Part shown: positions 20,106-57,388 of the stretch, in pieces
How positions within the stretch are numbered: position 1 is the first letter of the stretch
Layout: every line of letters starts with the position of its first letter
From: Gibbula magus
Lineage: Eukaryota > Mollusca > Gastropoda > Trochida > Trochidae
Direction of reading: 5' to 3'
Assembly: GCA_936450465.1 (NCBI GenBank)
Contig: OW388303.1
Span: 6,325,193-6,389,192 of the forward strand
Length of the DNA: 64,000 nucleotides
Made by a program: the position numbers and the translations under genes
Notes under the pieces: model-generated
What the model saw: only the letters and a program-made list of their open reading frames with translations
Told to the model about the DNA's origin: nothing
Database searches by the model: none

Positions 20106-20455
20106 TCAGTTTGGAGCTTTCTCAATTTTCCCATACTTGGCCTCCAAGTCCTTCAACATGCTGGCCTTGTTGAATGTTCTCCACTTATCCTTCAGGTTTG
20201 TGCTACTTCTGAATGTCTTCAAGGCTGTTCTTATAACACTCCAGTTCCCCACTCCGTGCACCTGGATGGCCTGGTAGAACTCTTCCTCTTCTCTCCGTGT
20301 CCATTTTACTCTTTTCTGAGGCAGAAACTGAGATTCTCTCGGTCGATTTGTCCTCTGCATATTTGTAGGCTTAGGATCACTTAAACATGTCACTTTCTTT
20401 TTGTACTGAAAGGCTCGTGGCAGTTTCATGCCAGACGAAGGTTTCTTTGGCGAAT
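20106..20455 (-). CDS. TERF: TERF exon 12 (telobox Myb, stop)
   Basis: Acceptor GTGTTTCCATTGCAG, stop TGA at 20106-20108. After a basic spacer it encodes the Myb/SANT domain: KRVKWTRREEEEFYQAI, HGVGNWSVIRTAL, STNLKDKWRTFNK. LKDKWR is the telobox signature of the DNA-recognition helix. The protein ends 19 residues after the domain, as in vertebrate TRFs. Confidence 0.96.
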
Positions 20456-26400: not shown

Positions 26401-29400
26401 ACCTTGCGCCCAGAAACACCAGGTCCTGCCTGGGGGCGATGTCTGACTTCTTCAGGTTGATGATCCAACCCAGCTTGAGCAAGATGTCTAACACCTGCTG
26501 GGTGGCCTCCTGATTCAGTTCTCGAGACAAGGCTCTTATCAGCCAATCGTCCAGGTACGGATGACAACACGTGCCCCGTGACCTGGCGGCCTGTGCCGGT
26601 ACCAACATCAGTTTGGTAAACACCCTCGGCGCAGTTGAAATGCCGAAGGGAAGTACCCGGAACTGGTAACACGTCCCGTCGAAAGAGAACCGAAGAAACT
26701 CCTTGAACTCGGGGTGCATTGGAACATGCAGATAAGCATCCTTGAGGTCTATTGACGACAGCCAATCTCCCCTCTCTACTGACGCTATCACTGTCCTCAG
26801 GGTTTCCATCTTGAACGTTGGAACCTGTAGAATTCAGAATCGGTCTGAACCCTCCGTCCTTCTTGGGTACCAGGAAGTAGGTTGAGTAATAACCACTCTG
26901 CTCCTGACCCTGTGGAACTACCTCGATGGCTGCTTTGTCTAATAAAGCCTGCACCTCGGCGCGAAGGACTTCCGCCTTCTCGGGCAACTCGGGCACCTTC
27001 GTGTGCCGTATCCCGGAGAAAGTCGGTGGGTCGTACTTCCAAAGTGGTAAGTGGCCCTCCCTGAGCGTGGACAGGACCCAGGTATTTGAGGTGACTTTCT
27101 CCCACTCTGAAACGAAGTGAGATAGTCTGCCGCCCACTGGAAGATTCTCGGAAAGACAGTGTACCCCCGTCTCCGGCAGCGTTCGAGCTGCCAGACTTTT
27201 GGGTGGTGACACAGGCAGTGGAGACCCTAGGATTGCTTGTTTGGCTTTCCTCGGCTCCGAAAATTCCGCTGGCCATGATTGCCCCTGCGGTTCTGCCCTT
27301 TCTTTCCCTTCCCCTTGAATTTCTTCTTGTTGCCCATAGGGCCATTCCAAGAAGGTTGGCTCAAACCCCCCGGCGTGGGGTAGAGACCATCAAGGGGGGA
27401 GAGCCGCACTCGCTTCTCTTGCGGAGCTGGGTCCTCGAGGAGCACCTTAGAGTCCTCGAAGGCAACCTTTTGCTCGGCGGCTTCCTTAACTACAGCCTGC
27501 GATCCAGGGAAGAGGGTGGACCCCAACCTGTAAGGCAAGTTCTGTAGTGTGAGGCGTGTGGACTGCGAGTACTTGGACGTCGACAGCCACAGCCGGCGCA
27601 TCCCCATGACTGCGCCCATTATCTGGCTCGCGGCACTCCGAATTGAGTCCCGGGCCAAATAGCTAGATACCTCTGACAGCTGCTTCTGGAATGTAGTCAC
27701 CTTAGTGCCTACTTCCTGCATCTCCGCCTGGTCCTTAGCCTGCATAGCAGCAAGGTAGGCCCCGTGCACCGCCACCCTTAGTTGTTGGGCTCCGTTCCTG
27801 TACGTGTCCTCATGGGCACGGAACTCGGCCTTGAACATAGCAGCGTGCGACGGAAATGGAGGCAGTCGCCGGCCCTGTTTGCCTAGAGAAGGCTGCGCCT
27901 GAGCGCCAGACAGGGTGACAGAGGTCAGGACGCACTCGTCGATAACCGGTAGGTCGAAGAGACCGTCCTCCCCTAACTGGTACCTCTTATTAAGTTCAGG
28001 CAGATCAGCCTTTGTACGGGAACCAGACAGGAGAGGGTTGATCGCCTCAACCAACAAGCTATCAAGAACGCGGAGCCTGGTCGCCGGAGGCTTGCTGGGA
28101 GCAAAAGCCTCCCCCGGTAGACGGAAATCCTCGGAGACCTGCTCCGGTACGGGAACAAGCGTCTGAGGGATAGCGATCGCTATACGGTCACGCGTCTCCC
28201 TCAGAAGCTCGGCGAGCGAGACAGCACGGCCGGATTCCTCATCCTCCTCTGAATACTCGGAGCCATCCTCCGACAGGTCCCCGGTACCGGAGCCACTCAG
28301 TAGCGACCCAGTATCCGAAGCCCTATCTCGGACAGTCCGTTTGAGAGGGATGCGAAACCCAGCTCTGCCCGCCGGCGCTCGTTCCTGAACCAGAGCCGGT
28401 CCCCGAAGCAGCGACGGCCCCGACGCCGGAGCGCCGGAGCCCTTACCTTTGGGGGTACCGGTGCCCCCCGACGTGCTCGGTACCACGGCACCTTGCACCG
28501 TCGGAGGGACTTGTTTAGCTTGAGTACGAGGCAGAGCCGGAGCAGTCTCTCGGGTGCCTACGTCGGATCCCGCTACCTTGCCGGGGCCTGCGCCCGGTTC
28601 AGTAGGGGACCCGAGGTCTTTACCGACATTTTTAGTGCCAGCCGACCCTGGAGCATCGAGATCCGGCAGGGCGACGACGGTCAACTCCTTACGGAGCTGT
28701 GCCATCATCGTCCCCACCATCCCAGTCATTTGCCCCTGGATGATTGCGGAGATAGCCGCAGCATCCAAGTTAGGATTAGGGTTAATAGCAACATTGGTAG
28801 TGAGTGTTTGAGGTAAAAGAACTGGGGGGCTTGATACATCCCCTGCAGCAGGCGACCCCACCTCCATGTCCACCTCATCCGATGAGGAAGAGGGGGCAGG
28901 AGGGGAGCTAACCTTTTGCTTGCCTTTACCCTTCTTACCCTTCCTCTTTTCCTTAGAGGGGGGGACCGAACCCTTAAGTTCTTGGCCCGCCTTCTGGAGG
29001 TTGCGATAGAAAATCATGTCCATCCCCCTCTCCTTCTTGGCCCGAGGGGTGAAGCTGAGACACAACTGGCAGGCTTGTTCGTCATGTTCGTCCTCGAAGA
29101 GACACACCAGGCACCGGTCGTGCTTGTCGGCCGGGGGCAAACGGGCCTTGCACCCCACACATTCGGTGAATGACTGCAAAGTCAAACACAGAATGTACAG
29201 GGGTGTGCATGAGTGTAAGTGCAATGTTTATGTTTGATAAAAGTGCATCATACAAACAACACGCAGAGGCGATACTATAATAACTAAGCACTAGGCAAGT
29301 AATAAATAGTAAGCCACTGAAAGAAATAAAGCATGAAATACCTAGTATATCTTGCCGACTGAAAACGATAACCCCGAGAATGAATAAATTCAAAAAGGGA

Positions 29401-32400
29401 GAAATCCTCGTCAGTAAAGTGCTGCCCTACAATGCGAAGCACGATAAAGAACCTCCAAAACAACCAGATCTCAATACAAAATAGCAAAGTACTAACACAT
29501 TGCATTTTGTTTGAGCATCCGCCATTTTGAGCGTTTTCCATCCGCCATTACTCGGTGAAGTCGAAGCACGTGCGAATTGAAAAACAAAGTTACAACGCGA
29601 AAAACCACTATATAAGTAACCTAACATTCGCCTCTACGAATAAGAAGGGGTTACCACACATACAGAAGCTTTCACTTTGTCCATTTTCTCAGAATAGAAG
29701 AAAAACTCAAGTTAACCGTCGACTGCAAAACACGTCTTGCCAGCTCGATGACAGATTGATAAGAGGTGAGAATAGAGTTACGTCCCTTGGTTTGCACTGG
29801 GATGGGGCTCTACACAGGGTGGTCACACGTTTGGAAAACACTTATTTTGTGTTTTTTGAACTTATTTTTACTGTTATTTTTAAAAATTAAGTTACAATCT
29901 GTCATCAAGTTAAAAATAAGGATTTTTATGCTATATGTACCCCAAGGAGGATCCCTTCTGAAAAAGAACCAATATGGCGGATTTTGCTGACAGAACGGCC
30001 CCTTTAAGCAAATGAAGGCAAAGTAGTAGGTAGTCATGTTATCTACAGCTTTGAACCAGCAACCCCAATATCTGCAGAACTGTACAGAACTTTCTCCTTT
30101 TAAACCCTCTCTGAAGACACACTTCTTTAGATTAGCATTTGACTGCTTCTCTCATGTATCTATCTGAGTTTGGTTTGTCTTGCGCTTTGAGCATTTTCAC
30201 AACGGAAATTAGTATATTTCAAGCATGGTATAACAGTGTTGTTCCTAGAGGGGGTCCTGGGGACATTTGCCCATCTTTTTGGCTAGGTGTCCCTTAAAAT
30301 TTGGAGAAGTAAGATACTTTTACCATTGCAAAGGGTCCCACTTGTTCAGAAATGGCCAAAATGACCCCCTCAGGAGATCACCTAGGAACAACACTGGTAT
30401 AATAATCATTATTATTCAATAATGGGGTTGTCAACTACTTTTAACACAAGAAACACAGGACCCTGTTTAAATAAATTAATCAGATTGAAAACGAACAAAA
30501 AAACTTCAAGACTTTACTATTTCCACATGTTCCTGACTTGTTTGTTACTTAGCCCTCTATGTTGACATTTAAACTTTTTATTATCAAATGACTTGCTACT
30601 TCGCAAAAATAGAGCACATCGAGTTCCCCAAGGTAATAGTCAACAATTACAGCGAAGAGCAGATCATAATGAATTGTCAGAATGGCAAAGAAAATAAAAA
30701 GTTGGTTGAGTCAACGAGATATGCATCTATTGAAAGCTTCAGCGGCAAAGTTTCAAGGATCTCATATTGTTTTCTCGCAAATTGTAAATAAGAGTAAATT
30801 TAAGTATAACTGAAAACTTAGCAACAGATTGACTAGAAAACACCTTTCATGATATATTGCATTATTTTAAATGATACAATTTGAAGCGCCAAAATGACAA
30901 AATCACTACCAAAATCTGGTCTGATGAGATCATATATGTGACAGATTTTGTTAGTATAAAGCTAATAGTACAATACATTAGTAAGCATCCTGTAAATTGT
31001 TAAATAATTTTCTAAACTACATACTACTCTACATATAAAGATCACACATGTAAATGAAATCAACTGACCCTAGCTTTTGGGTAGCATTTTCAAGGGCAAA
31101 CCGACGCTTCCTCATTGAATAAAGCAAAGTATCTGGACTGAAAGGAAAGGTGATATATGAGAAAACTTCCCCAATTAGACGGTGGAAGACGATTGCTTGG
31201 CACCGAAACCAAATGGCAAACAACATTTCACTACAGTAGGCAAAGTTTGCCAGAATCTGAAAGATTTGAATTCAGACCTTTTCATGAGAAGGCAAACACA
31301 CTATAACCACTGTGTTATTCACAATATATTGTGATAACTAGAAGTAACAGGAAACAATTGGGGTTAACGATAACAGGGGTAATGCAAACTTGCACAATCT
31401 TATTAGTCGTCAAAAGGGGATATATTTCTAAACTAGCCCTTTTACAGGCCACTAAATGTTAGTGAAATAAAAATCCCAAAGACAAAAGTGCTTGCCATAA
31501 GCTACTGGTTTCTGACGCTGTAGTTTTCATGCTCACAAAATGTTCATTTAAAAATAGAGCCATGGGCTCTGTAGCTCATCAGGATTTCATTGATTATTAT
31601 CTAAGGTTGACTATGGGTGCGCTCCTTTCGCGTCCTCGGAGCACTCTCAGATCACTGCTCTGCTCTCGTTGAAAGGAGTATCTCGAAGAAATATTGTACA
31701 GCAAGGTCAAGGGTCATTTCCTGAGTCATATAATTTGGTGAAATTAACAACTTTTAGATCTATTTACCATGATAAAAATATTGAACATGATAATAAAGCT
31801 GTCTTCTTGATTTAAAATGAGAGAGATAATATTGTCATTATTTTTTAGCTGTTCATTTGTAGGTCGTATTTCAGCTGCTCTGTCTGCTCCACCTGATTGT
31901 GAGGAGTAGCTTAGAGCAAACTCCGAGCACGGTCTGGTCGCGCTCCTTTCGTTTGGAGTACTCCGAGTAGAATTCTCAGCTGAATGGAGCGCACCCTATC
32001 TAAGTTATATCAAGTAATACATTGTTATCAAGAAAAAAATGGGTTTTTTAGACCTTGACTCCTGTGACCCAACTTTGGAGTCACAGGGTCACAAATCTAC
32101 AATTACAATTTCACCTTTCTACAGCTTTACATACTTAAGATAAAGATGAAAATATTTGGGTCATGACCCGTGACCTAGATTGGGGTCACAAGGTCACAAA
32201 ATCTACAATTTTGAATCCACATTGGCCAAGGAGTCTGAAAACAACTTTTCAGCTCTCTAGACCTTTTGGAACTGGAGAAGAAGATGAAAATAGGTTTTTA
32301 AGGATGTGACCCCTGTGACCCCATTTGGGGTCATGGGGTCACGAAATGTACAATTTAGTATCCCCATTGGCCAAGGAGTCTGCACACAACTTTTCAGCTC

Positions 32401-35400
32401 TCTAGACCTTTTTGAACCGGAGAAGAAGATGAAAATAGGTTTTTAAGGATGTGACCCCGATGAGCCCATTTGGGGTCATGGGGTCATGAAATGTACAATT
32501 TAGTATCCCCATTGGTCAAGGAGTCTGCACACAACTTTTCAGCTCTCTAGACCTTTTGGAACTGGAGAAGAAGATGAAAATAGGTTTTTAAGGATGTGAC
32601 CCCTGTGACCCCATTTGGGGTCATGGGATCACGAAATGTGCAATTTAGTATCCCCATTGGCCAAGGAGTCTGCACACAACTTTTCAGCTCTCTTGACCTT
32701 TTGGAACTGGAGAAGAAGATGAAAATAGGTTTTTAAGGATGTTACCCCTGTGACCCCATTTGGGGTCATGGGGTCACGAAATGTACAATTTAGTATCCCC
32801 ATTGGCCAAGGAGTCTGCACACAACTTTTCAGCTCTCTTGACCTTTTGGAACTGGAGAAGAAGATGAAAATAGGTTTTTAAGGATGTGACCCCTGTGACC
32901 CCAATTGGGATCATGGGGTCACGAAATGTACAATTTAGTATCCCCATTGGCCAAGGAGTCTGCAGACAACTTTTCAGCTCTCTAGACCTTTTTGAACCGG
33001 AGAAGAAGATGAAAATAGGTTTTTAAGGATGTGACCCCGATGAGCCCATTTGAGGTCATGGGGTCATGAAATGTACAATTTAGTATCCCCATTGGCCAAG
33101 GAGTCTGCACACAACTTTTCAGCTCTCTAGACCTTTTGGAACTGGAGAAGACGATGAAAATAGGTTTTTAAGGATGTGACCCTGGTGACCCCATTTGGGG
33201 TCATGGGGGTCCTGAGGTCATGAAATGTACAATTAAGTATCCCCATTGGTCAAGGAGTCTGCACACAACTTTTCAGCTCTCTAGACTTTGGAACTGGAGA
33301 AGAAGATGAAAATAGGTTTTTAAGGATGTGACCCCGGTGACCCCATTAGGGGTCATGGGATCACGAAATGTACAATTTAGTATCCCCATTGGCCAAGGAG
33401 TCTGCACACAACTTTTCAGCTCTCTAGACCTTTTGGAACTGGAGAAGACGATGAAAATAGGTTTTTAAGGCTGTGACCCCGATGAGCCCATTTGGGGTCA
33501 TGGGGTCATGAAATGTACAATTTAGTATCCCCATTGGCCAAGGAGTCTGCACACAACTTTTCAGCTCTCTAGACCTTTTGGAACTGGAGAAGAAGATGAA
33601 AATAGGTTTTTAAGGATGTGACCCCTGTGACCCCATTTGGGGTCATGGGGTCACGAAATGTACAATTTAGTATCCCCATTGGCCAAGGAGTCTGCACACA
33701 ACTTTTCAGCTCTCTTGACCTTTTGGAACTGGAGAAGAAGATGAAAATAGGTTTTTTTAAGGATGTGACCCTTGTGACCCCATTTGGGGTCATGGGATCA
33801 CGAAATGTACAATTTAGTATCCCCATTGGCCAAGGAGTCTGCACACAACTTTTCAGCTCTCTAGACCTTTTTGAACCAGAGAAGAAGATGAAAATAGGTT
33901 TTTAAGGATGTGACCAGGATGAGCCCATTTGGGGTCATGGGGTCATGAAATGTACAATTTAGTATCCCCATTGGCCAAGAAGTCTGCACACAACTTTTCA
34001 GCTCTCTAGACCTTTTGGAACTGGAGAAGAAGATGAAAATAGGTTTTTAAGGATGTGACCCCGGTGACCCCATTTGGGGACATGGGGTCAAGAAATCTAC
34101 AATTTTGAATCCCCATTGGTCAAGGAGTCTGCACACAACTTTTCAGCTCTCTAGACCTTTTGGAACTGGAGAAGAAGATGAAAATAGGTTTTTAAGGATG
34201 TGACCCCGGTGACCCCATTTGGGGTCATGGGGGTCATGGGGTCATGAAATGTACAATTTAGTATCCCCATTGGCCAAGGAGTCTGCACACAACTTTTCAG
34301 CTCTCTAGACCTTTTGGAACTGGAGAAGAAGATGAAAATAGGTTTTTAAGGATGTGACCCCGGTGACCCCATTAGGGGTCATGGGATCACTAAATGTACA
34401 ATTTAGTATCCCCATTGGCCAAGGAGTCTGCACACAACTTTTCAGCTCTCTAGACCTTTTGGAACTGGAGAAGAAGATGAAAATAGGTTTTTAAGGCTGT
34501 GACCCTGGTGACCCCATTTGGGGTCATGGGGTCAGGAAATGTACAATTTAGTATCCCCATTGGTCAAGGAGTCTGCACACAACTTTTCAGCTCTCTTGAC
34601 CTTTTGGAACTGGAGAAGAAGATGAAAATAGGTTTTTAAGGATGTGACCCTTGTGACCCCATTTGGGGTCATGGGGTCACGAAATGTACAATTTAGTATC
34701 CCCATTGGCCAAGGAGTCTGCACACAACTTTTCAGCTCTCTAGACCTTTTTGAACCGGAGAAGAAGATGAAAATAGGTTTTTAAGGATGTGACCCCGATG
34801 AGCCCATTTGGGGTCATGGGGTCATGAAATGTACAATTTAGTATCCCCATTGGCCAAGGAGTCTGCACACAACTTTTCAGCTCTCTAGACCTTTTGGAAC
34901 TGGAGAAGAAGATGAAAATAGGTTTTTAAGGATGTGACCCCGGTGACCCCATTTGGGGTCATGGGGTCATGAAATCTACAATTTTGAATCCCCATTGGTC
35001 AAGGAGTCTGCACACAACTTTTCAGCTCTCTAGACCTTTTGGAACTGGAGAAGAAGATGAAAATAGGTTTTTAAGGATGTGACCCCGGTGACCCCATTTG
35101 GGGTCATGGGGGTCATGGGGTTATGAAATGTACAATTTAGTATCCCCATTGGCCAAGGAGTCTGCACACTACTTTTCAGCTCTCTAGACCTTTTGGAACT
35201 GGAGAAGAAGATGAAAATAGGTTTTTAAGGATGTGACCCCGATGAGCCCATTTGGGGTCATGGGGTCATGAAATGTACAATTTAGTATCCCCATTGGCCA
35301 AGGAGTCTGCACACAACTTTTCAGCTCTCTAGACCTTTTGGAACTGGAGAAGAAGATGAAAATAGGTTTTTAAGGATGTGACCCCGGTGACCCCATTTGG

Positions 35401-38400
35401 GGTCATGGGGTCATGAAATCTACAATTTTGAATCCCCATTGGTCAAGGAGTCTGCACACAACTTTTCAGCTCTCTAGACCTTTTGGAACTGGAGAAGAAG
35501 ATGAAAATAGGTTTTTAAGGATGTGACCCCGGTGACCCCATTTGGGGTCATGGGGGTCATGGGGTTATGAAATGTACAATTTAGCATCCCCATTGGCCAA
35601 GGAGTCTGCACACTACTTTTCAGCTCTCTAGACCTTTTGGAACTGGAGAAGAAGATGAAAATAGGTTTTTAAGGATGTGACCCCGATGAGCCCATTTGGG
35701 GTCATGGGGTCATGAAATGTACAATTTAGTATCCCCATTGGCCAAGGAGTCTGCACACAACTTTTCAGCTCTCTAGACCTTTTGGAACTGGAGAAGAAGA
35801 TGAAAATAGGTTTTTAAGGATGTGACCCCGGTGACCCCATTTGGGGTCATGGGGTCACGAAATGTACAATTTAGTATCCCCATTGGCCAAGGAGTCTGCA
35901 CACAACTTTTCAGCTCTCTTGACCTTTTTGAACTGGAGAAGAAGATGAAAATAGGTTTTAAAGGATGTGACCCCTGTGACCCCATTTGAGGTCATGGGGT
36001 CACGAAATCTACAATTTAGAATCCCTATTGGCCGAGGAGTCTGTACACAACTTTTCAGCTCTCTTGACTTTTTGGAACTGGAGACGAAGATGAAAATAGG
36101 TTTTTAAGGATGTGACCCCTGTGACCCCATTTGGGGTCACGGGGTCACGAAATCTACAATTTAGAATCCCCATTGGCCAAGGAGTCTGCACATAAAATTC
36201 TAGCTCTGTGGAGTCATTGGTTCTGGAGAAGAAGTCGAAAATGCGCAAAGTTTATGGACGGATGGACGGACGGATGGCCGGACGCCGGACGCCATGCCAT
36301 GCCATAAGCCCATCGGGCCTTTCAGGCCTGATGAGCTAATTAATTTAAAGAATTAAAACATAACTGAATAACTTAATATTTAATCCAATGTACAATTTGA
36401 AGGATTTCAACTTTGATATTGTACCTTTTTACTTCTCTACTTTCTCTCCTTCTGGATCTTCTTACAGGCGTTCTAAACGAAATCATAATACCCGTACAAA
36501 TGTATTGTCATAAGAACAATGAATCAAATAAGAAACATTATTGAATTTCTTGACATTTAAAAAAACAAATAAGTTTCCCCAATATAAAAAATATATTGAA
36601 TTATGTTGATTACTTTGAATTAAATTAATGCATGTATATGATTAGAAATACTTGCCATTTAGATAGTGAAGAAATATAACATGGTTATATTTGTGTTATA
36701 TCAATTCTTGTACTTTTTCGGACCGAGTCCCATGCAGAATTTGAACCCATGCCCTCAGAGTAAGGCAACTATTGCCAGCATTGACTGTACCACGATCGTG
36801 TGGTAAGCTGTTTGTACAGTCAATGCTGGCGACAGTTGCCTTACTCTGAGGGCATGGGTTCGAATCCTGCATGGGATTCGGCCCGAAAAGTACAAGAATG
36901 TGTACTATTGAAGGTAGTGTTATCCCAAATATAACCATGTTATTACATGTATATGATGTTATATATAACATATGTAAGTCAAAATTTTCATATAAATTTT
37001 AACAAAGCTCAAACATAAAATAAAACGCTATTTAAGGATAAGGACACATTCTGATCTCACGTTTTAGCTGATCCACCATTGCTAATCTCTTCTGGTTCAC
37101 TTTCTTCATCTGTTTGGACAAATACAACAAGAAGAAAACATTAAAGAGGAAAATCCCAGTTTTAACCTCAAATTAGGACAAGGTGAGATGATTTTAATAC
37201 AGAGAGAAATCAAACTTTTCAGGAATTATACATTGTTAACAAAGGTTATATCTGACATAGGCAAGGGGCTCAAAAGATAGGCATACTTGTCTCGTGTCTA
37301 AACACATGAATACTGAACCACAGGCAGGATATGCCCAGAGCTACAGATAAGCTGAATATTAGATTAAATTACGCAATAATTTCAGTGAAAACCAAATTGA
37401 GTACACATAAGATTATATTTCTAAAAATACTCAATTAAGTTTATATTTAATGCATATACACATAGAAATTCAAATCCTAACTTTAGTACCGGTTAATTTT
37501 ATTCCTGTTAATGGTGATTGAAATCTGAAAGCCGACATAGACAACCACTCCAGCTGAGTGATTGTTGTTACCTCCCTTGAAGCACACGAGTATACCATTA
37601 CTCTTACTACTCTCTACAAGTCAGCGATGGCTAACCAAAACATACATGAATATTCTTATTTTACTATATTTCTAAAATAGACACAAAATTTTTAAAATAC
37701 CCTATTGATCTGATTGAGGGGAGTGCAATTTATTTGGTTACCAAAAGTAAAATATGGATACTCAATTAAGATAAACACAAGTGTGTACATCCCCCAAAAG
37801 GTTATATAATAGCTGTGTGTGCATGACTTAGCTTCAACTAGCCGTCCTGAACACGGAACTGGAATAGTACTACATTAGTGGTCAAAAGGATTTCCTGAAA
37901 TAAAAGCATTAAGGACAAATGTCAATTTACCCTAGTGTTTCCAGAAAATATAAAAATATGCTTCCTTTTTTAAAGAAAAGCTTCATATCCAAACAATGAA
38001 AGGTAAATTCAAAACTTTCCAACCTGAAGAAGTCATGTCGTTGGCGTCCATGTTGGAGTTGTTTGTATCCTCCATGGAAGAACTGACCACCTCCATCACT
38101 GTCTGCAATACATAGAGATTATTACCTGAGGAAGTGGGTCATGATTTTTAGGAAACAACTGTGAATTTTTGTATTGCCCGAGCGAGAGTCATACACAAAT
38201 TTGCACAAGTTTTGTAAAAGTCACACTTTTGAGTGTAATATATTTGTTATTACCAATTCTATTCCATTTGAATCTCTAAAAATAGTCAGGATACGATCTA
38301 CTTCTCTTGCGTCAGCAAACTACAGTGAAGTCATGAACAATCATTATATGACGTCACAGACAGAACACCGAAAGTTGCTGTGAAACAATGGTTGCTAATG

Positions 38401-47187: not shown

Positions 47188-47407
47188 ATGAAGTACAGAA
47201 GTACAAGAGGTAAAGTTGGAGGACTTTCCTTTGAAGAGGCATTGTACTCAGGATTTACAGCAGATGGTGGAATTTTACTTCCTGAGAGAATTCCTCGTAT
47301 TTCAGCCGATACTTTGAAGTCATGGGCGGCTCTGAGCTTTGTGGATCTTGTCAAGAAGATCGTGCCGCTGTTTGTTGAAGAGGAAATACCAGAAGCAGAT
47401 CTGAATG
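47188..47407 (+). CDS. THNSL2: THNSL2 exon 1
   Basis: Starts MKYRSTRGKVGGLSFEEALY; 73 codons plus 1 nt, donor GTAAAA. GGLSFEEALYSGFTADGGILL is the family's N-terminal signature. Confidence 0.93.
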
Positions 47408-50400
47408 GTAAAATACTATATGTGTTCCTAGAGTAGGTCCTCGGCAAATGTTCTCACCCGTTTGGCTGACTCAGTGTCTCTTAAACATTTGAAAAGTAGG
47501 ATTCATCATGAATGACATCTGTTTAAACCAAACAACACTTTTCTTTTTGCTCGGCTACTATACAAAATTTGAAAACCCCAACATTCTACGTGTTTATAGC
47601 TGCAAGATGTTTATGTTTTACATGTTAACTATGCATCCCAAATGATGAACGTATCAAAACGCATGTATTCATACCCATCCTTCCTTATCGTATTGCCAAA
47701 GGAGTAAAAACTGGGTGAGAATTTCTCAAACGTACTAAGAACGAATAGAACGTAACAAGGACCTATTGTGAACTTTTAGACCTGTGTAGGAACGTAGTAG
47801 CAACTTCTTAAGAACAATTAATTTTATTTGGAACAAATTTACATGAGACAGCAGCTGAAAGGGGCGTACTGTGGTAGAGTTACATATGCGTGTGGACGAG
47901 ATGGACAGGGTAGAAACTGTGCACAAACGTATTACAATTGATTTTCCGACTGCAGATCATCCTCACCCGTCCTTAGTAAGCTCGAAGTACGGTTAATCCG
48001 CTCGCAGTATGGCAGCTCCGTTCGAAGTACGACAATCCCATTTTTAGTACGTTTGTACCCAGTCCAATTTCAGAACGGGTAGATCGTTGGACATGTCCAA
48101 CGATCTGGAGCACCCTTCTGTTTTTAGTACGTCCGTGCAAGTTCATAAATTTCGCAAACAGTTGCCACTACGTCCATTCCATTCTCAGACAGTAAAAAAA
48201 ATTCAAGAATGTAGTGAGAACAGGGTTTGGTGTATAGGGGGTATAAAGTCTGGACTGATATCAGCAGAATGCTGGTGTAAAGTGAAAACATACCCCTCCT
48301 TCAAAGCATGCCAAGGTAGATTCTGGGAGCTCACAGAATCTACCTGCTCTTCCCAGAATGTACCTCTGGAGCCTCTGGAGGTACATTCTGGAAACTTTCA
48401 GAATCTACCCTGGGTAGATTGTGAAAGCTCCCAGAATCTACCCTGGGTAAATTCTGAAATCTCCAAGAACCTACCCTGTTGTAATGTAATCTAGAAGCTG
48501 CTCAGGTCTGCTCTGTTCTCTGATGTCTTAGGGATAATCTAGTAGGTTTTAGAATATTTGTAATCAAAACAAAAGTTGTCATATAGAAATGACCTTCGTG
48601 CGCTTGGGTCTCGTTTCCGGACCAAAAACTGTTTTGAAAAATGCTGGCTTGAGCAGAGTTAACTGTATAATGTTTCAGAACTCCTTGATAAAGCATTTAG
48701 TAGATTCAGTCATCCCGACATAGCTCCAATAACACGGCTGTCCAATGGATTGAATGTAATGGAGCTATTTCACGGAGTCACATGGGCTTTCAAAGATCTT
48801 GGTCTGTCTTGCGTCGGACAATTCATCAACTACTTCCTGAGCAAGAGAAAGAAGCATCTTTGCATTATGATTGGTAAGAGGGATTTCTTAAAGCTTGTAT
48901 TTTAAAGCTTGATTTTGTGGTTGAAAACAATGTCTCTATTATACATTTATCAGATGATGTTTGCATGAGTAAATCTTACTAATCCTGCTCCTTTGAACAG
49001 TCTTTGCAAATGATATGTAAGATTTATTTCTTAACCCTTGTGTTTCAACTTTGAATTTATCCACAAAGTTAGTCTTGGTATGAGATGAAGTTTCCTGCCT
49101 CATTAGCACTCAGGTCTGTCTGTAATTGTGAGTTTCAACTCCATATTTGAGAATATGCCACAACACCAGTGTAATGTGTAGCGTAGTCTACAATCTTCAG
49201 TGGTGGATCCAGAAATTTTGAAGGTTTGAACCCCCTTCCCCCCCTCTCTCTGAATCTGCTTCTGATCTTTAGAGGATAGATATATATGTTACATGTGAGT
49301 TATGAATATGTACTAGTCTAATACTCCTTGGCAAAATTCATTGAAATTTTAAAAAATCTTTGTTTCAGCCACATCTGGAGATACAGGAAGTGCTGCCATA
49401 GAGGCGGTGCGTGGATCTGAGTGGGCGGACATCATCGTGATGTTGCCTCGCGGTCGAATCTCTCGAGTTCAGGAACTACAGATGATCACTGTGCTGGATA
49501 GTAACGTGAATGTGTACAGAGGTAGGCTTTTCACACCTAAATGATTTGTTAAAAGTATTGTGAGAATTCCTGTATTTCAAACAATATCTGGTGTCATCAA
49601 GGACATCAAATAAAAACTTTGTTACAACAGTCTCCCGTTAAAGAGCCATTGAGTAAGTTGATAACAATATATTCTTGACAGCAGCAGTAGAACTTATGTC
49701 AAAATGTTGCATATGCAGAATAAAGAAGTATGACCATAAATATAGTCTTCATTCTTCTTTACTCGATGTTTGACAATCATCAGATATAATCTTGTTCCCC
49801 TCCAGTTGACGGAACATCTGATGAGCTGGATGACGTGATGCGAGCGTGCTTCGCTGATCTGGAGTTCACGAAGAAGAACAATCTGTCCTGTATAAACTCA
49901 ATCAACTTCTCCAGGATATTGATTCAGATCGTCCACTACTTCTACGCTTATCTTCAGGTAAGCTGAAATCTTGGTTGATTCCCTTTCATGTAACCTGCAA
50001 TCGCTTCCCACAGAGGTAACTCAAGTCAGTTCTTCTCACGTAACCTCTGTTTCCATTCTCTCCCCATAGAGGTAAATCAAGTCAGTTCTTCCCACGTAAC
50101 CTATTTTTCGACAAGAGCAATATTATGTATCGATCATGATGAACATATTCAGAGGGTGAATTTGATGCTCTATGTTATTATCTGACGTGGCGTTTTTTCA
50201 GATGTGTCCGACGTGTGACAAGGAGGTAGAGATCGCTATACCAACAGGAGCAGGAGGAAACGTAACCTGTAAGTGCTTGCTCGCAATCCTTTAAAGTTAG
50301 GAATCAACTTAAAAGCATTTTGTCTTATCCCATTTCCAGGGTACCCAAATACTCTAGGGTAGTCCGTCTTTAGGCAGCAGCCACTGTCCCATACTCACCT

Positions 50401-53400
50401 TTGTAAATGAGTACTGATTCCTGTGAATTGGCCACTCAAACTGGTTTAATGCTGATTAATTAAACCTCTAAAATTAATTAATCAAATAATTAATTAATTA
50501 ATTTGTTTGTAAAAAATCATATTTTCTAATACCAAGGCATTTTGCTATAAACAAAATAAAAATATTACTTGTTTTAATTGATATATAAACTGACCATCTG
50601 TAACAGGCAGAAGATGAAACAAATATATTTACATAAAATTTGTTCCGGATGTTTTACATCTGCCAGTACTACCTAGCATCTTTATTTGAAGTTTTGTTGT
50701 AAAATGTACTGTGGGTTTGATTGATGCTTCATACAGGTAAACAACCAATTCTGTCTACACCTGCAACTTATTTTGACGATATTTGAAGAGACATGCCATT
50801 TATGCTGGTCCGTACTGGCTTGTCGAGCTGACGTGTACTCCCAATCTAGTGTAATCCATGTGATATTACTGTCCTCATATCTAATTTGTTCTTTCTCGGT
50901 TCGAAGGTTTTAACCCAATTTTACACTTTCTAAATGATAAAATATATACAATGATAGAAAATTCACATAGTAACAGATAACACATAACACAATAAAACTG
51001 ATAAATAATATGCTGTTAGATCGTAGCGAAATTTTACCCACTCGCAACGCCGATGAATGGCTTCAGTTCTCAGCGTTTTTATTTTTCAACAAGGGTGCGC
51101 TTTGCCTTTATTAATTTGTGAAATATAAAGTCATCAAAATATTATCTTCATTACTATCGTTCAATTTGACTGTGTTTTAAAGGATGGATGAAATGACATA
51201 TGGTCCAAATCGGATTCATTAAAATGGGATGTCAATTTGACAATTGCTTGATTTTAAATTTCTGAAATCGGTCCATAAATTACGTATATACGGCTTTTTA
51301 AAAAACCGCCTGATTTAGCCCCGGCGACCAGAATGAAAGTCTGCAGGGGTGTGACCCGTGAAGGGATGACTTCTGTGACGTATGTGGAGGAATTTGATTT
51401 TTAGCGATAGTCACAATTCAACGTAATTTCGCAACATTTTGATTGTTAATTTCACAAAGATACCTTCAATAAACCAACTTAAATTTCCCATATATCGAAT
51501 GTTTAGATATCCATCTATGTAATTCCGCAGATGACAATTACACAATTATTACATAAACATGTCTTTTTGGCGATGTAATACACCTCATAAATTCATTTAG
51601 CGGCAGTGATAATTATCATTAATTAATTAACGAGACATCGGCGGAGAAGCTATCTAGCCGCCCCGCCTATCGCTTATCACAGTCACACCTCAGTGAGCAT
51701 TTTCAAAATAATTATCAATTGCAAGTGTATATTGTCTCGATTTTATGCTCAATTGATTCCGATATACAATATACGTAGAGGTAATCATCTGTCATTCTTG
51801 AGAAAAATGCATTTCATCTATCCTTTAATCATGTATTAATAACATATATGTGTCAACAGGAATATCCTCTCAAATTTCATTTCCACAAAAAATACCCCGA
51901 TAGAACCCTCCTTTTAGCTTGTGTGTGCTATTTTTTACCAAATTATTTAATGTAAAGTTTTCTCAGTAATATGTTCTAACTGAATTGTGTAACAAGTCTC
52001 ACATCTGCCACTTTGAGTCATATGTTTAGCACGGAGCACGGAGCATGAGCACAGAGCACTGAGATCTATTATTTTATTAGATTGCACAGCAAAATATGCA
52101 AAATTCTTGCATTCAGTACTTTTTACTTCATATATACAAACTCTCATTTAACAAATGCACTTGCAAAACTATAATACCTATCTGTTTAACTCTATACAAA
52201 TTCTATTGGTTATAAAGTACATGATTCTCATGTAAATTGGGGAACAGTGTAAAATTATTGCTTTTTACAAGTAGATGATTGGGTAGTGAAATGTTTATGC
52301 CAGTGGCCTTTACATGAAGAAATTGTTCAAGTTCTGTGTATTTGCATAAACAAATTCTGTACTACTTACTATTAATTCTGACTGTTCTTTGGAAGAGTAG
52401 TATTTTAGACATGAAAACTGAGGAAATATTCCACGTTTTGAAGCTGGCTGTATTGCCAAGATGATGGGTCTACCACTGAAGCTGGTATGTTGTGTGACAA
52501 AGAACGACACTGTAGCTCGCACACTCGACAAGGGAGATTACGCTATCACTGAAGTCACCATGTCACTGGCCCCAGCAATGGATATTCAAGTCAGTGTGCC
52601 CAATAACTGTTCTCAGTTGACTTAATTGGATTGACTTTAAATATTCCTTGATCTTTTGCTATGAAAATGACCATGTACTCTCTTCATGGAGACGTGGCAA
52701 ATTCCACAGTGTTAGTATCTGCACTGTAACGTCGCATATCATTGCAATAAGGAAGTTGTAAATCCGTAAATTTTTTAATTCTTCATATTACCAATTTCTA
52801 AATGCCTCTTAAAGAAGTTATTTGCATATAATTAACGAGTGATATTGCCAGGTTGCGTACAACATGTAATGAGTGATATTGGCAGGTTGCGTACAACATG
52901 TAACGAGTGATATTGCCAGGTTGCGTACAACATGTAACGAGTGATATTGCCAGGTTGCGTACAAAATGTAACGAGTTATATTGCCAAGTTGCGTACAACA
53001 TGTAACGAGTGATATTGCCAGGTTGCGTACAACATGTAACGAGTGATATTGCCAGGTTGCGTACAACATGTAACGAGTGATATTGCCAGGTTGCGTTCAA
53101 CATGTAACGTGTGATATTGGCAGGTTGCGTACAACATGGAGCGCATCTGGTACTTGTTTTCTGACGGAGACGTGGACAAGATCGACGAGATGATGAAGGA
53201 GTTTGATTCAACCAAGAAGACCAAAGTTCCTGATAAGTTGAAGAACGAGGTAAGTTGTTAGTAAAGAAGGTCATTTCTGTATAAACATGTAAGTTGTTTA
53301 ATTTTACCTCATCTGGCCTGAAAGGCTCGATGGGCTTATGGCATGGTGTCCTGCGTCTGTAAACTTTTCGCATTTTCATCTTCTTCTCCAGAACCATTTG

Positions 53401-56400
53401 GTCTAGAGAGCTAAAATTTTGTCTACAGATACCTTGGCCAATATAGGGTCACAGGGGTCATGACCTGAAAAGCTATTTTCATCTTGAGATTTCATGTGCT
53501 CTTCAAAGGGAGGTAATTTATAGGAAACAACAGTGATGAATTAAATCTTCAATTGTGTCTTTATTAGTAGGGGATTTTATCTCTTGCCTCCAAGATAGGT
53601 GAGAGGGATAAGGACCTTAAGACCTATTTCATCAGTGTTTCCCATGTGTTGAACCTCTCACCTAGAAGTTGACATTTTGAATTAGTTAATGTATATAAAA
53701 CCTGATGAGTACAGAGCCCATGGCTCTATTTTTATCAAAATTTCAAGTTCCAAAATCTAAAAGTCATTACTCTTCTCTTACCTGTGTTAACATTCACGAA
53801 CAGTTTTCTACATCCAGAATTTCGTGAGTGAATTATCTAAATCAAATTATTCTGCTTTTCCTTAAAAACATCCTGCTTCATCAGGGTTTTTGTATCTGCA
53901 AGACTACTTTAATCCCACGATTCTCTTTATAACATCTGCGTCGCCTTGCTTATTTGTCAGTAAATGAAATGTCATGATTTAAAATTTGATGGTCACCCAT
54001 CTGTTTTCTCCTCTGGGCACTGCCAATATTGTTTATTTTAAGATAATTTTATTTGCTGTTTTTGAAAACAATCAGGAGATTGAAGGAGCCTTGTGGTTAG
54101 AAATTCCCTGATGGAGCAGGTGCTTTAAAGAATATAGTATAGAGCAGAATATTGATTAGTAATATTAGAATGCTTTACATTAATCGTAACTGATTTATTG
54201 TTCAGACAATTTCTAAGTTCAATTCTCTCAATGTTAACATCATGCGGCATTCAAATAATTGATAAAGTAGAAATGAAAAGAATAATTGTCCGATTGATAA
54301 TAATTTCTCATTTGCTGATTAAAAATAATGTCTCATTCTCTCTCATTTCTTCTCACATTACCTCTACTCTAACATTAGCAAATGGTGGGTGCATTTGAGA
54401 AATCAGAAAAACATTAGAAGGGTACTCTAACGGGTTACTTTGAAAGATATAAGTTGTGTAACTGCTGTGGGGAGAGATGTTAAATTCTCGTCATAATCCT
54501 CACCTTTAAAAGTGTATCTCATACAAAGCCTGATGAGCTGCAGAGCTGATTGTATGATAGCTCACTTTCCGCTCTCTCAGATAGCGCAGGTTATCAGCAG
54601 CCATGTGGTGCCGGACGAGGAGATCAAGCAGTCGATGAGGAGATGTTGGGAGGAGAATAACTACCTGGTGTGTCCTCACACAGCCACAGCAGTCAACTAC
54701 CACTACACCAGACACGGGTGAGTCAACTACCGCTACACTAGACACGGGTGAGTCAACTACCACTACACCAGTCACAGGTGAGTCAACTACCACTACACCA
54801 GACACGGGTGAGTCAACTACCACTACACCAGACACGGGTGAGTCAACTACCACTACACCAGACACGGGTGAGTCAACTACCACTACACCAGACACGGGTG
54901 AGTCAACTACCACTACACCAGACACGGGTAAGTCAACTACCACTACACCAGACACGGTGAGTCAACTACCACTACACCAGACACGGGTGAGTCAACTACC
55001 ACTACACCAGACACGGGTGAGTCAACTACCACTACACCAGACACGGGTGAGTCAACTACCACTACACCAGACACGGGTGAGTCAACTACCACTACACCAG
55101 ACACGGGTGAGGCAACTACCTGTACACCAGACACGGGTGAGTCAACTACCACTACACCAGACACGGGTGAGTCAACTACTTCTACACCAGACACGGGTGA
55201 GTCAACTACCACTACACCAGACACGGGTGAGTCAACTACCTCTACACCAGACACGGGTGAGTCAACTACCACTACACCAGATACGGGTGAGTCAACTACC
55301 ACTACACCAGACACGGGTGAGTCAACTGCCTCTACACCAGACACGGGTGAGTCAACTACCACTACACCAGACACGGTTAAGTCAACTACCACTACACCAG
55401 ACACGGGTGAGTCAACTACCACTACACCAGACACGGTTAAGTCAACTACCTCTACACCAGACACGGGTGAGTCAACTACCACTACACCAGACACGGGTGA
55501 GTCAACTACCACTACACCAGACACGGGTGAGTCAACTACCACTACAGCAGACACAGGTGAGTCAACTACCACTACACCAGACACGGGTGAGTTAACTACC
55601 ACTACACCAGACATGGGTGAGTCAACTACCACTACACTAGACACGGGTGAGTCAACTACCACTACAGCAGACACGGGTGAGTCAACTACAACTACACCAG
55701 ACACGGGTGAGTCAACTACCTCTACACCAGACACGGTGAGTCAACAACCACTACACCAGACACGGGTGAGAAAACTACCACTACACCAGACACGGGTGAG
55801 TCAACTACCACTACACCAGACACAGGTGAGTCAACTACCTGTACACCAGACACGGGTGAGTCAACTACCTGTACACCAGACACAGGTGAGTCAACTACCA
55901 CTACACCAGACACGGGTGAGTCAACTGCCACTACACCAGACACGGGTGAGTCAACCACCACTACAGCAGACACGGGTGAATCAACCACCACTACAGCAGA
56001 CACGGGTGAGTCAACTACCTGTACACCAGACACGGGTGAGTCAACTACCACTACACCAGACACGGGTGAGTCAACCACCACTACACCAGACATGGGTGAG
56101 TCAACCACCACTACAGCAGACACGGGTGAGTCAACTACCACTACACCAGACACGGGTGAGTCAACCACCACTACACCAGACACGGGTGAGTCAACTACCA
56201 CTACACCAGACACGGGTGAGTCAACTACCTCTACACCAGACACGGGTGAGAAAACTACCACTACACCAGACACGGGTGAGTCAACTACCACTACACCAGA
56301 CACGGGTGAGTCAACCACCACTACACCAGACAAGGGTGAGTCAACTACCACTACACCAGACACAGGTGAGTCAACTGCCACTACACTTAAACTCTAAGCA

Positions 56401-57388
56401 ATCAGGGGATACCCTAATGGAGCGGGAATGGATTCTAAAGGTTGAGGCTAAAGATGCCAAAAGAAAAAAAACTATTAATTGAACATAAACGGTCTAATCA
56501 ATCAATCAATGTTGTTTAACCTTATGTTCTATTGTTGTTATCTATACAAAGCAAGTAGACCACAATGTTATGTTTGGAAAATTATTGTTAGAAAAGGAAA
56601 ATTATATACTGTAAAACACTAATTAGTACCATTCTTTATTTATTTAGATAAACAAAATTGCAGAAAATATTGCAATGAAAAATATATCTTTCAATAAGAT
56701 AGATTTTTGTAAATTTGTATGCCCCCGAATCGGAGATTACGCGGGTATATTGTTTTTCACCTCTCCGTCTGTCGTCCGTCCGTGTGTTTGTCCACAAAAA
56801 CTTTAACCATGGCCATAACTTCGGATTGCTCAGAGCTAGGGCTTTCATACTTGGCATGCGCATACCTTGTGATGAGGCCTTTCAGATGAGGTCATCATAT
56901 TTGACCTTGTGACCTTGACTTTGCCGTAGTGGACATCTTCAGAAAACTTTAACCTTGGCCATAATTTTGGTATATCTGGGGGCCTCCGTCACCATCAGTT
57001 TAACAAACACATCTTGTTCTATATTAATATCAGTGTATTCCATGGCTCTTGGGATTTGGGTGGTTGAGAAAGGGGCGCCACTTATACCCGGTCTACTTAT
57101 ACCCGGTAATATGCGGTAATCTAAAATACCAGTCACTATTAAGTTTTGTTTAATCCTAGGACAAAGGGAGACAACCCACTAAGAGTGTGCCTGGCGTCTG
57201 CTTCCCCAGCCAAGTTCGAGGAGTCTGTGACAGCAGCAGGACTCACGTTTACTCCAACAGAGGGCGTGAAGAAACTCCTCGACATGCCCACACGCTATCT
57301 GGACCTGGAGAAGGAAGACGATTGGACGAAAGTAATGAGGGCAAAGGTTGAGGAACTCACCGCACAATTTCAGGTCAACAACTCCTAA
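47188..57388 (+). CDS. THNSL2: Threonine synthase-like 2, complete 9-exon gene
   Basis: Exons 47188-47407, 48679-48873, 49369-49521, 49806-49957, 50202-50268, 52444-52589, 53124-53249, 54581-54717, 57160-57388; 1425 nt = 474 aa, close to the usual ~480. All introns GT-AG, all phases consistent. Fold type II PLP enzyme of the threonine synthase family: N-terminal STRGKVGGLSFEEALYSGFT, PLP-lysine motif GVTWAFKDLGLS (Lys112), ATSGDTGSAAIEAVRG, phosphate-binding PTGAGGNVTSG (about 254-264), C-terminal VNYHYTRHG and LASASPAKFEESV. Vertebrate THNSL2 acts on O-phosphothreonine/phosphohomoserine-type substrates to give 2-oxobutyrate; animals lack true threonine synthesis. An in-frame TGA 33 nt upstream (47155) supports the start. 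Two of its exon edges are amplified as minisatellites (see 52833-53138 and 54692-56386). Confidence 0.95.
48081..48106. repeat. Perfect 26-bp palindrome
   Basis: AGATCGTTGGACA followed by its exact complement TGTCCAACGATCT, in THNSL2 intron 1, shortly after a stretch with repeated GAAGTACG motifs (47977-48030). Confidence 0.95.
48310..48476. repeat. Self-complementary minisatellite (CAGAATCTACC / GGTAGATTCTG)
   Basis: Alternating sense and antisense copies of CAGAATCTACC, CAGAATGTACC and GGTAGATTCTG/GGTACATTCTG, joined by GGGAGCTC or CTGG links, so that several nested hairpins are possible. In THNSL2 intron 1. Confidence 0.9.
48679..48873 (+). CDS. THNSL2: THNSL2 exon 2 (PLP lysine)
   Basis: Acceptor TATAATGTTTCAG, donor GTAAGA; 2 + 192 + 1 nt. 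Carries LSNGLNVMELFHGVTWAFKD, where the Lys binds PLP as a Schiff base. Confidence 0.96.
49369..49521 (+). CDS. THNSL2: THNSL2 exon 3
   Basis: Acceptor TTTGTTTCAG, donor GTAGGC; 2 + 150 + 1 nt. TSGDTGSAAIEAVRG (conserved substrate/PLP loop), then IIVMLPRGRISRVQELQMIT. Confidence 0.96.
49806..49957 (+). CDS. THNSL2: THNSL2 exon 4
   Basis: Acceptor TTGTTCCCCTCCAG, donor GTAAGC. Encodes DGTSDELDDVMRACFADLEF and LSCINSINFSRILIQIVHYF, conserved in the family. Confidence 0.95.
50015..50100. repeat. Two-copy tandem of a dispersed ~60-bp sequence
   Basis: AGAGGTAACTCAAGTCAGTT...CACGTAACCT occurs near 50014 and again near 50068. A third copy (AGAGGTAACTCAAGTCATTT) lies at 57885. In THNSL2 intron 4. 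Confidence 0.75.
50202..50268 (+). CDS. THNSL2: THNSL2 exon 5 (phosphate-binding loop)
   Basis: Acceptor GGCGTTTTTTCAG, donor GTAAGT; 22 codons plus 1 nt. IAIPTGAGGNVT is the Gly-rich loop that holds the PLP phosphate. Confidence 0.95.
50913..51913 (+). mobile_element. MITE A4, split by element E
   Basis: ACCCAATTTTACACTTTCTA, ATGAATGGCTTCAGTTCTCA and, after the insertion, AATCATGTATTAATAACATA to CGATAGAACCCTCCTT follow family A. The left terminus is eroded. THNSL2 intron 5. Confidence 0.78.
51181..51824. mobile_element. TTAA-flanked MITE E (piggyBac-type)
   Basis: AGGATGGATGAAATG at the left is inverted as CATTTCATCTATCCT at the right. TTAA lies exactly at 51177-51180 and 51825-51828. It splits A4 at GTGTTTTAA-TCATG, giving an exact empty-site comparison with A1. 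644 bp, non-coding. Confidence 0.88.
52444..52589 (+). CDS. THNSL2: THNSL2 exon 6
   Basis: Acceptor CACGTTTTGAAG, donor GTCAGT (C at +3 is unusual). Encodes SGCIAKMMGLPLKLVCCVTK and TMSLAPAMDIQ; phase 0 end joins Val-Ala-Tyr-Asn-Met of exon 7. Confidence 0.93.
52833..53138 (+). repeat. 34-bp minisatellite of a 3' splice site plus exon start (9 copies)
   Basis: Nine exact-length 34-bp units, TAACGAGTGATATTGCCAG followed by GTTGCGTACAACATG. The ninth unit is the real acceptor (TTGGCAG at 53123) and the first 15 nt of exon 7 (Val-Ala-Tyr-Asn-Met, conserved in THNSL2). Eight decoy acceptors lie upstream (one with CCAAG in place of CCAGG). Using any of them would add the five residues and then TAA. 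Confidence 0.95.
53124..53249 (+). CDS. THNSL2: THNSL2 exon 7
   Basis: Forty-two codons in phase 0, donor GTAAGT. Encodes VAYNMERIWYLFSDGDVDKI. The start lies inside the ninth unit of the 34-bp array. Confidence 0.94.
53304..53735 (-). mobile_element. Helitron-like element G2 (compact relative of G1)
   Basis: On the minus strand it begins AAAATAGAGCCATGGGCTCT and ends with the hairpin CATCGAGCCTTTCAGGCCAG-ATGAG; the core retains about one unit (TTGGCCAAGGTATCTGTAGA, GGAGAAGAAGATGAAAATGC). THNSL2 intron 7. Confidence 0.78.
54581..54717 (+). CDS. THNSL2: THNSL2 exon 8
   Basis: Acceptor CGCTCTCTCAG, donor GGGTGAGTC; 45 codons plus 2 nt. Encodes RRCWEENNYLVCPHTATAVN then YHYTRHG, matching the conserved CW.EN.YL.CPH.AVAVNYHY region. 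Its last 26 nt are the first 26 nt of the 30-bp array. Confidence 0.95.
54692..56386 (+). repeat. 30-bp minisatellite of exon end plus 5' splice site (56 copies + 17 nt)
   Basis: Unit GTCAACTACCACTACACCAG-ACACGGGTGA, 56 full copies plus a 17-nt partial; two units are 29 bp (near 54955 and 55735). Copy 1 spans the real end of exon 8 and its donor. GT is kept in every copy I read, most as GGGTGAGT, a few as GGTTAAGT, GGGTAAGT or GGGTGAAT. In the gene's frame each unit ends in TGA. Long open frames across the array in other frames are artefacts of a period divisible by three. Confidence 0.97.
56717..56990. repeat. Repeat family H copy
   Basis: GTATGCCCCCGAATCGGAGA, a potential pairing partner ACGCGGGTAT, (GTCC)n-like CCGTCTGTCGTCCGTCCGTG, then about one and a half units with ACTTTAACCATGGCCATAAC / ACTTTAACCTTGGCCATAAT. 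Helitron-like tandem-core type, minus orientation. THNSL2 intron 8. Confidence 0.6.
57160..57388 (+). CDS. THNSL2: THNSL2 exon 9 (stop)
   Basis: Acceptor TTGTTTAATCCTAG, 1 nt plus 75 codons and TAA. Encodes RVCLASASPAKFEESVTAAG, then WTKVMRAKVEELTAQFQ, the usual THNSL2 C-terminus. Confidence 0.95.

Follow-up and report, generated by a model that had tools for sequence, protein, structure and literature searches.

A 56-unit tandem array across the exon 8 donor junction of THNSL2 in Gibbula magus, probably a tolerated minisatellite

The THNSL2 gene in the window

The DNA analyzed here, referred to as the window, is a stretch of 64,000 nucleotides from the gastropod Gibbula magus (assembly GCA_936450465.1, contig OW388303.1, positions 6,325,193 to 6,389,192 of the forward strand). 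It contains an intact gene for threonine synthase-like 2 (THNSL2), which comprises nine coding exons on the plus strand (47188-57388) with a coding sequence of 1425 nt, including the stop codon, and encodes a protein of 474 amino acids. All eight introns begin with GT and end with AG, their phases are consistent, and internal stop codons are absent. Two tandem arrays lie across splice junctions of this gene, as listed below (a caret marks the junction).

47188-47407, 48679-48873 and 49369-49521, plus strand: THNSL2 coding exons 1-3 (gene model)
49806-49957, 50202-50268 and 52444-52589, plus strand: THNSL2 coding exons 4-6 (gene model)
52833-53138, plus strand: acceptor array, nine units of 34 bp (Tandem Repeats Finder, TRF, 9.0 copies, 94%)
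53124-53249, plus strand: coding exon 7, 126 nt, starting VAYNMERIW; its first 15 nt are contained in unit 9 of the acceptor array
54581-54717, plus strand: coding exon 8, 137 nt, ending ..CACGG^GTGAGT; its last 26 nt (54692-54717) belong to unit 1 of the donor array
54692-56386, plus strand: donor array with 54 units of 30 bp and two of 29 bp (56 full units) and a 17-nt tail
54718-57159, plus strand: intron 8, 2442 nt, about two-thirds of which is the donor array
57160-57388, plus strand: coding exon 9, the last, with the acceptor ..aatcctag^GACAAAGGG (gene model and homologue alignment)

The predicted protein contains the Pfam domains Thr_synth_N (4.4e-23) and PALP (1.3e-13), both above cut-off, and matches THR4_C at 6e-5, which is below the curated cut-off of that family. 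A homologue search was performed in a collection of 5.8 billion sequences, from which 7,997 candidates were scored; among the best 120 of the 4,715 hits, the closest is a protein of Haliotis cracherodii (67% identity over 100% of the query), and none is a near-identical transcript-derived protein of the same species. A further search for such a protein gave six matches from 83 candidates, the top of which by E-value is 49% identical. In a FastTree phylogeny of 21 chosen sequences, the THNSL2 of the window clusters with two Haliotis sequences with a support of 0.999. The start of exon 7 (MDIQ^VAYNMERIW) aligns without gaps to the two Haliotis proteins, which read MDIQ(M/L)AYNMERIW, and the alignment with 20 homologues is continuous across the junction of exons 8 and 9, which falls in a loop of variable length within the family.

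Several other features were observed. The start of intron 4 (49985-50115) carries two imperfect copies of (C)ACAG/ATAG-AGGTAA..TCAAGTCAGTTCTTC..CACGTAACCT, in which acceptor-like and donor-like motifs stand side by side and which, by eye, resemble neither neighboring exon end. Elsewhere in the window are a 145-bp tandem array of about 4 kb (32180-36192; TRF, 27.4 copies, 93% matches), a reverse transcriptase domain (RVT_1, 3.5e-36) at 13864-14958 on the plus strand that by eye resembles a non-LTR element, and two long minus-strand ORFs of 899 and 666 amino acids (24690-29227) that are retroelement-like and by eye DIRS-like. An ORF with a Myb domain (1.9e-8; telomere-repeat-binding factor-like by eye) is located at 20106-20585 on the minus strand, and an ORF with a teneurin-type EGF domain (1.9e-8) at 2274-2597 on the plus strand.

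Tandem arrays at the ends of exons 8 and 7

The array at the end of exon 8 was identified by TRF at 54691-56386 with a period of 30, 56.6 copies, 93% matches and a score of 2986, which is far beyond chance, and a direct parse from 54692 gives 56 full units followed by 17 nt of a 57th. The consensus of the unit is GTCAACTACCACTACACCAGACACGG^GTGA and is matched exactly by 22 of the 56 units. Unit 1 consists of the last 26 nt of exon 8 and the first four of intron 8 (GTGA), and the GT of the next unit completes the donor GTGAGT. A first-pass annotation of this DNA had described 56 full copies of a 30-bp unit composed in this way and had derived the array from coding sequence; TRF and the direct parse bear out the former, the gene model the composition of unit 1, and the gene model together with the homologue alignment the latter. 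The donor GT is in place in 54 units, units 23 and 25 reading GGTTAAGT instead. GGTGAGT as a whole is kept in 49/56 units, and the donor nonamer reads CGG^gtgagt in 39 and CAG^gtgagt in five. Units farther from the exon diverge slightly more from the consensus (rho 0.28, permutation p 0.02), a polarity too faint to support a conclusion, and no block repeats were seen within the array, where the mean between-unit distance is flat over lags of 1 to 24.

The two units of 29 bp are units 9 and 35, each of which is one G short in a GGG run. This is an error typical of some long-read methods and might be taken as a trace of a misassembly that inflated the copy number. Such an artefact is highly improbable, since the substitutions among the units are scattered and differ from one another, the array lies in a 70-Mb contig of a 140-contig assembly, and intact gene sequence is found on both flanks. 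A coding role of the array itself would be suggested by the reading frame that gives mucin-like STTTTPDTGE repeats and is open over long runs (54639-56397); this frame, however, is not that of the gene and is broken by the two 29-bp units, and the distinct changes among units (7 synonymous, 14 non-synonymous and 1 stop, against 26, 61 and 3 possible) reveal no clear constraint. Mucin-like coding was therefore rejected, and we give it next to no credence.

An exact copy of the consensus unit occurs 22 times in the 1.47-Gb assembly, and all 22 occurrences (exact matches only) are in the donor array. A genome-wide search was also performed for three GGTGAGT motifs with start-to-start spacings of 19-49 nt, with the reversed motif as the control. 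It returned 5,710 + 7,203 matches against 2,591 + 4,442 for the reversed motif, a 1.8-fold ratio that is no test, as counts overlap within arrays. By this search, the genome is rich in donor-like tandem arrays. The listing of matches covered 100 places, all of them on contig 1, and 30 loci were retrieved; nine loci, which stand for seven separate array places, were sampled by eye (L011, L012, L013, L015, L016, L023, L025, L030 and L040) and judged by the open frames before the array, L040 being scanned on the plus strand only, where no array was seen. A convincing exon before the array was found in none of the seven places, in three of which (L011, L012 and L030/L040) the upstream edge is poorly in view. 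One of them, L013 (G000:C1:3271913-3272039, minus strand), has four GGTGAGT motifs in a 40-bp array after ..AAGTCACCCAGAAG^GTGAGT and is, judged by eye, a weak candidate for another array at an exon end. The THNSL2 array stands out in that its unit 1 is a real exon end.

The smaller array, which the first-pass annotation did not include, spans the acceptor of exon 7. Its consensus, TAACGAGTGATATTGCCAG^GTTGCGTACAACATG, comprises 19 nt of intron and 15 nt of exon, and the acceptor AG is kept in eight of the nine units (unit 5 reads CCAA). The rest of exon 7 adjoins the last unit only; if splicing entered at one of the eight earlier units, translation would run through VAYNM, VAYKM or VAFNM into a stop codon, after five residues. 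The true exon 7 acceptor is pyrimidine-poor (9/20), the other seven acceptors of the gene having 10-16. By the gene model, then, the acceptor required for exon 7 is the last of nine and the donor required for exon 8 is the first of 56, which in both instances gives the shortest exon.

Among the 16 splice junctions of the gene, these two alone have near copies (20-mers, at most four mismatches, within 3 kb). The probability that at least two of the five TRF arrays in the gene span a junction was estimated post hoc at about 0.03, and two junction arrays in one gene are a little unexpected for independent accidents. A shared cause is conceivable, in which tandem duplication in this lineage would be drawn to the splice junctions of transcribed genes, for example by transcription- or splicing-linked breaks, so that exons 7 and 8 became bracketed by amplified splice sites, and in which the output of THNSL2 would be set by array length; we regard this as a long shot. 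If it were true, splice-site copy number would be a heritable expression dial.

Choice among the donors and the origin of the array

When the first donor is joined to the acceptor preceding position 57160, the protein reads NYHYTRHGTKGDNPLRVCLASASP, in line with DYHYSRQGSS..DDTLRVCLASASP of Haliotis, and the conserved protein is obtained only from the first donor together with the last exon 7 acceptor. Homology alone would be insufficient to place the donor within the variable loop, but it is fixed to the base because every later donor meets a stop codon. Read-through past the first donor gives TRHG and a stop at once, with the loss of the last 75 of 474 residues; the truncation by downstream donors that had been foreseen from the sequence is thereby upheld. 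The related claim of an in-frame TGA in every unit is sound for exon 8 through the first five units, which were translated; farther in, the two 29-bp units shift the frame. The stop lies 26, 56 and 86 nt before the last junction for donors 2, 3 and 4, respectively. Under the usual 50-55-nt rule of nonsense-mediated decay, which is not established for molluscs, decay of the decoy products would be expected from donor 3 onward, as the stop is then at least 56 nt before the last junction.

The first donor is likely to be the one chosen, one of the options that the first-pass annotation had put forward. Over positions -3 to +6, 38 of the 55 decoys have the same sequence as the true donor, and 13 do over -26 to +14; the choice among identical copies must therefore rest on position. 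Use of the first donor gives an exon 8 of 137 nt, use of donors 2-6 exons of 167-287 nt, and use of the last an exon of 1785 nt, and a choice of the first donor by position fits exon definition. In vitro, however, the intron-side donor tends to win when several donors carry U1, a preference that would predict heavy decoy use. Both of two alternative sites may be occupied even though one is used (PMC5861446). Masking of the decoys by RNA structure was rejected, since the start of the donor array (54660-54900) does not fold more stably than its shuffles (z +1.30; 186/200 shuffles as stable). The acceptor array (52860-53160) gave z -1.68, with 6/100 shuffles as stable, a signal of fold stability that is weak at best.

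Pairing of the donors was computed against the 5′ end of U1. The true donor has a predicted pairing energy of -12.0 kcal/mol, the strongest of the eight donors of the gene (the other seven, -3.4 to -11.1), and the unit donor is predicted to pair more strongly than any of the 529 GT sites that the gene has elsewhere. Of the 55 decoys, 43 have a predicted pairing equal to or stronger than that of the true donor, five of them stronger (CAG^gtgagt), and the earlier description of dozens of strong donors in series is apt. The remaining 12 pair less well, and sequence is therefore not wholly neutral in donor choice.

The strong predicted U1 pairing of the unit is what would favor a platform for U1 under selection, which would strengthen the recognition of exon 8, guard intron 8 from early polyadenylation or titrate U1. 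The 54 units of 30 bp contain 54 substitutions and 22 distinct changed states over 30 positions, and within these units the U1-pairing positions show no extra conservation over the rest of the unit: 17 changes were counted in the nine donor positions, where 16.2 would be expected, with 8 distinct states where 6.6 would be, and the donor ranks 17th for conservation among the 30 circular nine-base windows. The first-pass annotation had proposed a check of whether GT is more conserved between units than other positions; the outcome was negative, since 15 of the 30 circular dinucleotides, GT among them, have at most two changes. Neither AATAAA nor ATTAAA is present in intron 8, and polyadenylation signals that need suppression there were accordingly rejected. 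With donor positions not spared and GT lost in two units, with no such signals to guard against, and with thousands of other tandem GGTGAGT triplets in the genome making titration by one gene implausible, a selected platform is quite improbable, and the titration raised in the earlier annotation is not supported. There is no sign that the donor motif is maintained by selection; the strength of the donors in the array seems to be no more than an inheritance from the original one.

The reading that we prefer, at a probability of about 0.7, is that the donor array is a splice-junction-spanning minisatellite (VNTR) of the kind known from ABCA7 and CBS, which is tolerated and in which it is mainly position that selects the first donor. 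A short tandem duplication would have happened to span the border of exon 8 and intron 8, and slippage or unequal exchange would have expanded it to 56 copies, which could be tolerated because the outermost copy remains the true exon end. The first donor would be favored by its position, as it alone adjoins the body of exon 8, is transcribed first and gives the shortest exon; the other 55 donors would be decoys, whose occasional use leads to the TRHG-stop product. A smaller expansion of the same sort would have taken place at the acceptor of exon 7. Copy number would then probably be a neutral or mildly harmful length polymorphism, and array length may lower the output of THNSL2. Intron gain by tandem duplication was rejected as an origin, since the conserved protein uses one copy per junction and no extra intron is needed.

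An unlikely but stronger form of leakage is that the decoys are often used and that the array, through transcripts that are truncated and decayed, restrains THNSL2 to a degree that depends on array length. The many decoys that match or surpass the true donor in U1 pairing are consistent with it, as are the statement in a review that the activity of CBS reportedly declines with rising repeat number (PMC5188458) and the use of the donor copy created by an 8-bp duplication in SLC22A1 (OCT1; rs35854239) in 38-52% of minigene transcripts (PMC8137991). In liver, however, the alternative OCT1 product amounts to 0.3-0.6%, a figure lowered by decay (PMC8137991), and in ABCA7 the retention of a repeat unit is minor and unchanged with array length (PMC5954066). 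Two frameshift isoforms of ABCA7 are given as 14 ± 6 and 2 ± 1%, "respectively" (PMC5954066); on our own reading of that word, the former is the cryptic-acceptor isoform and the latter unit retention. The RNA data of these human cases favor the first donor as the one mainly used, with some leakage.

THNSL2 offers, ready-made by nature, a classic splicing experiment, with many donors of the same sequence, each behind a similar 26 nt of exon and only the first of them right, and with nine near-identical acceptors at the neighboring exon, only the last of them right. Where copies are identical, local sequence cannot decide, and the outcome measures position effects alone.

Comparison with known junction-spanning repeats

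The THNSL2 array shares with donor-spanning VNTRs a head-to-tail unit within about 25-31 bp, the authentic donor (as predicted from the gene model and the homologue alignment) in unit 1, and a repeated GT, in 54/56 units. The statement in the first-pass annotation that no named system of this kind was known is mistaken, since donor-bearing VNTRs are described in human ABCA7 and CBS. In ABCA7, a 25-bp unit that starts at the GT of the exon 18 donor is repeated from 12 to about 427 times in intron 18, and when splicing shifts to the next donor, one more unit is included together with a premature stop (PMC5954066). As in THNSL2, the tandem array starts at and includes the authentic donor, and 56 copies fall inside the ABCA7 range. 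The ABCA7 decoys, however, start at GT and lack exon context, whereas each THNSL2 unit carries 26 nt of exon; ABCA7 array length affects skipping of the next exon, which rises (PMC5954066), whereas the next coding exon in THNSL2 is the last; and no acceptor array is noted in the parts of the ABCA7 report drawn on here, whereas THNSL2 has one.

CBS provides a strikingly parallel case, in which a donor VNTR is accompanied by a duplicated acceptor junction, although the positions in the two proteins are not known to correspond. A 31-bp VNTR of 16-21 copies, c.1444_1467+7(16_21), lies across exon 13 and intron 13, and c.844_845ins68 duplicates the junction of intron 7 and exon 8; of the two copies of this junction, splicing uses the one closer to the body of the exon (PMC2630376, PMC5188458). 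These sites are termed "splice donor sites" in PMC2630376, but the title of the work cited there (Romano et al. 2002) speaks of 3′ splice site selection. By its name, the CBS unit comprises 24 nt of exon 13 and 7 nt of intron 13, a make-up like the 26 + 4 of THNSL2. CBS differs in having 16-21 copies against 56, in an acceptor duplicated once against nine copies, and in a 31-bp unit that shifts the frame, whereas the 30-bp unit of THNSL2 ends in TGA.

In OCT1, too, a duplication at an exon-intron junction places donors in series with one product truncated, but in this case there is a single extra donor copy (PMC8137991). A further human VNTR, in FAM20C, also lies across an intron-exon junction and is said to affect alternative splicing (PMC5941971). 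In human paralogues, internal tandem repeats on the borders of exons and introns alter splicing and can create new introns (PMC2812944), whereas no new intron was seen in THNSL2. The junction-spanning VNTR is a kind already known from human ABCA7 and CBS. The present case suggests that such VNTRs occur in molluscs too, where gene finders could easily misplace exon ends, and, within the literature searched, what appears new is the occurrence in a mollusc, an acceptor array of nine copies, and the combination of that array with a donor array of 56 copies.
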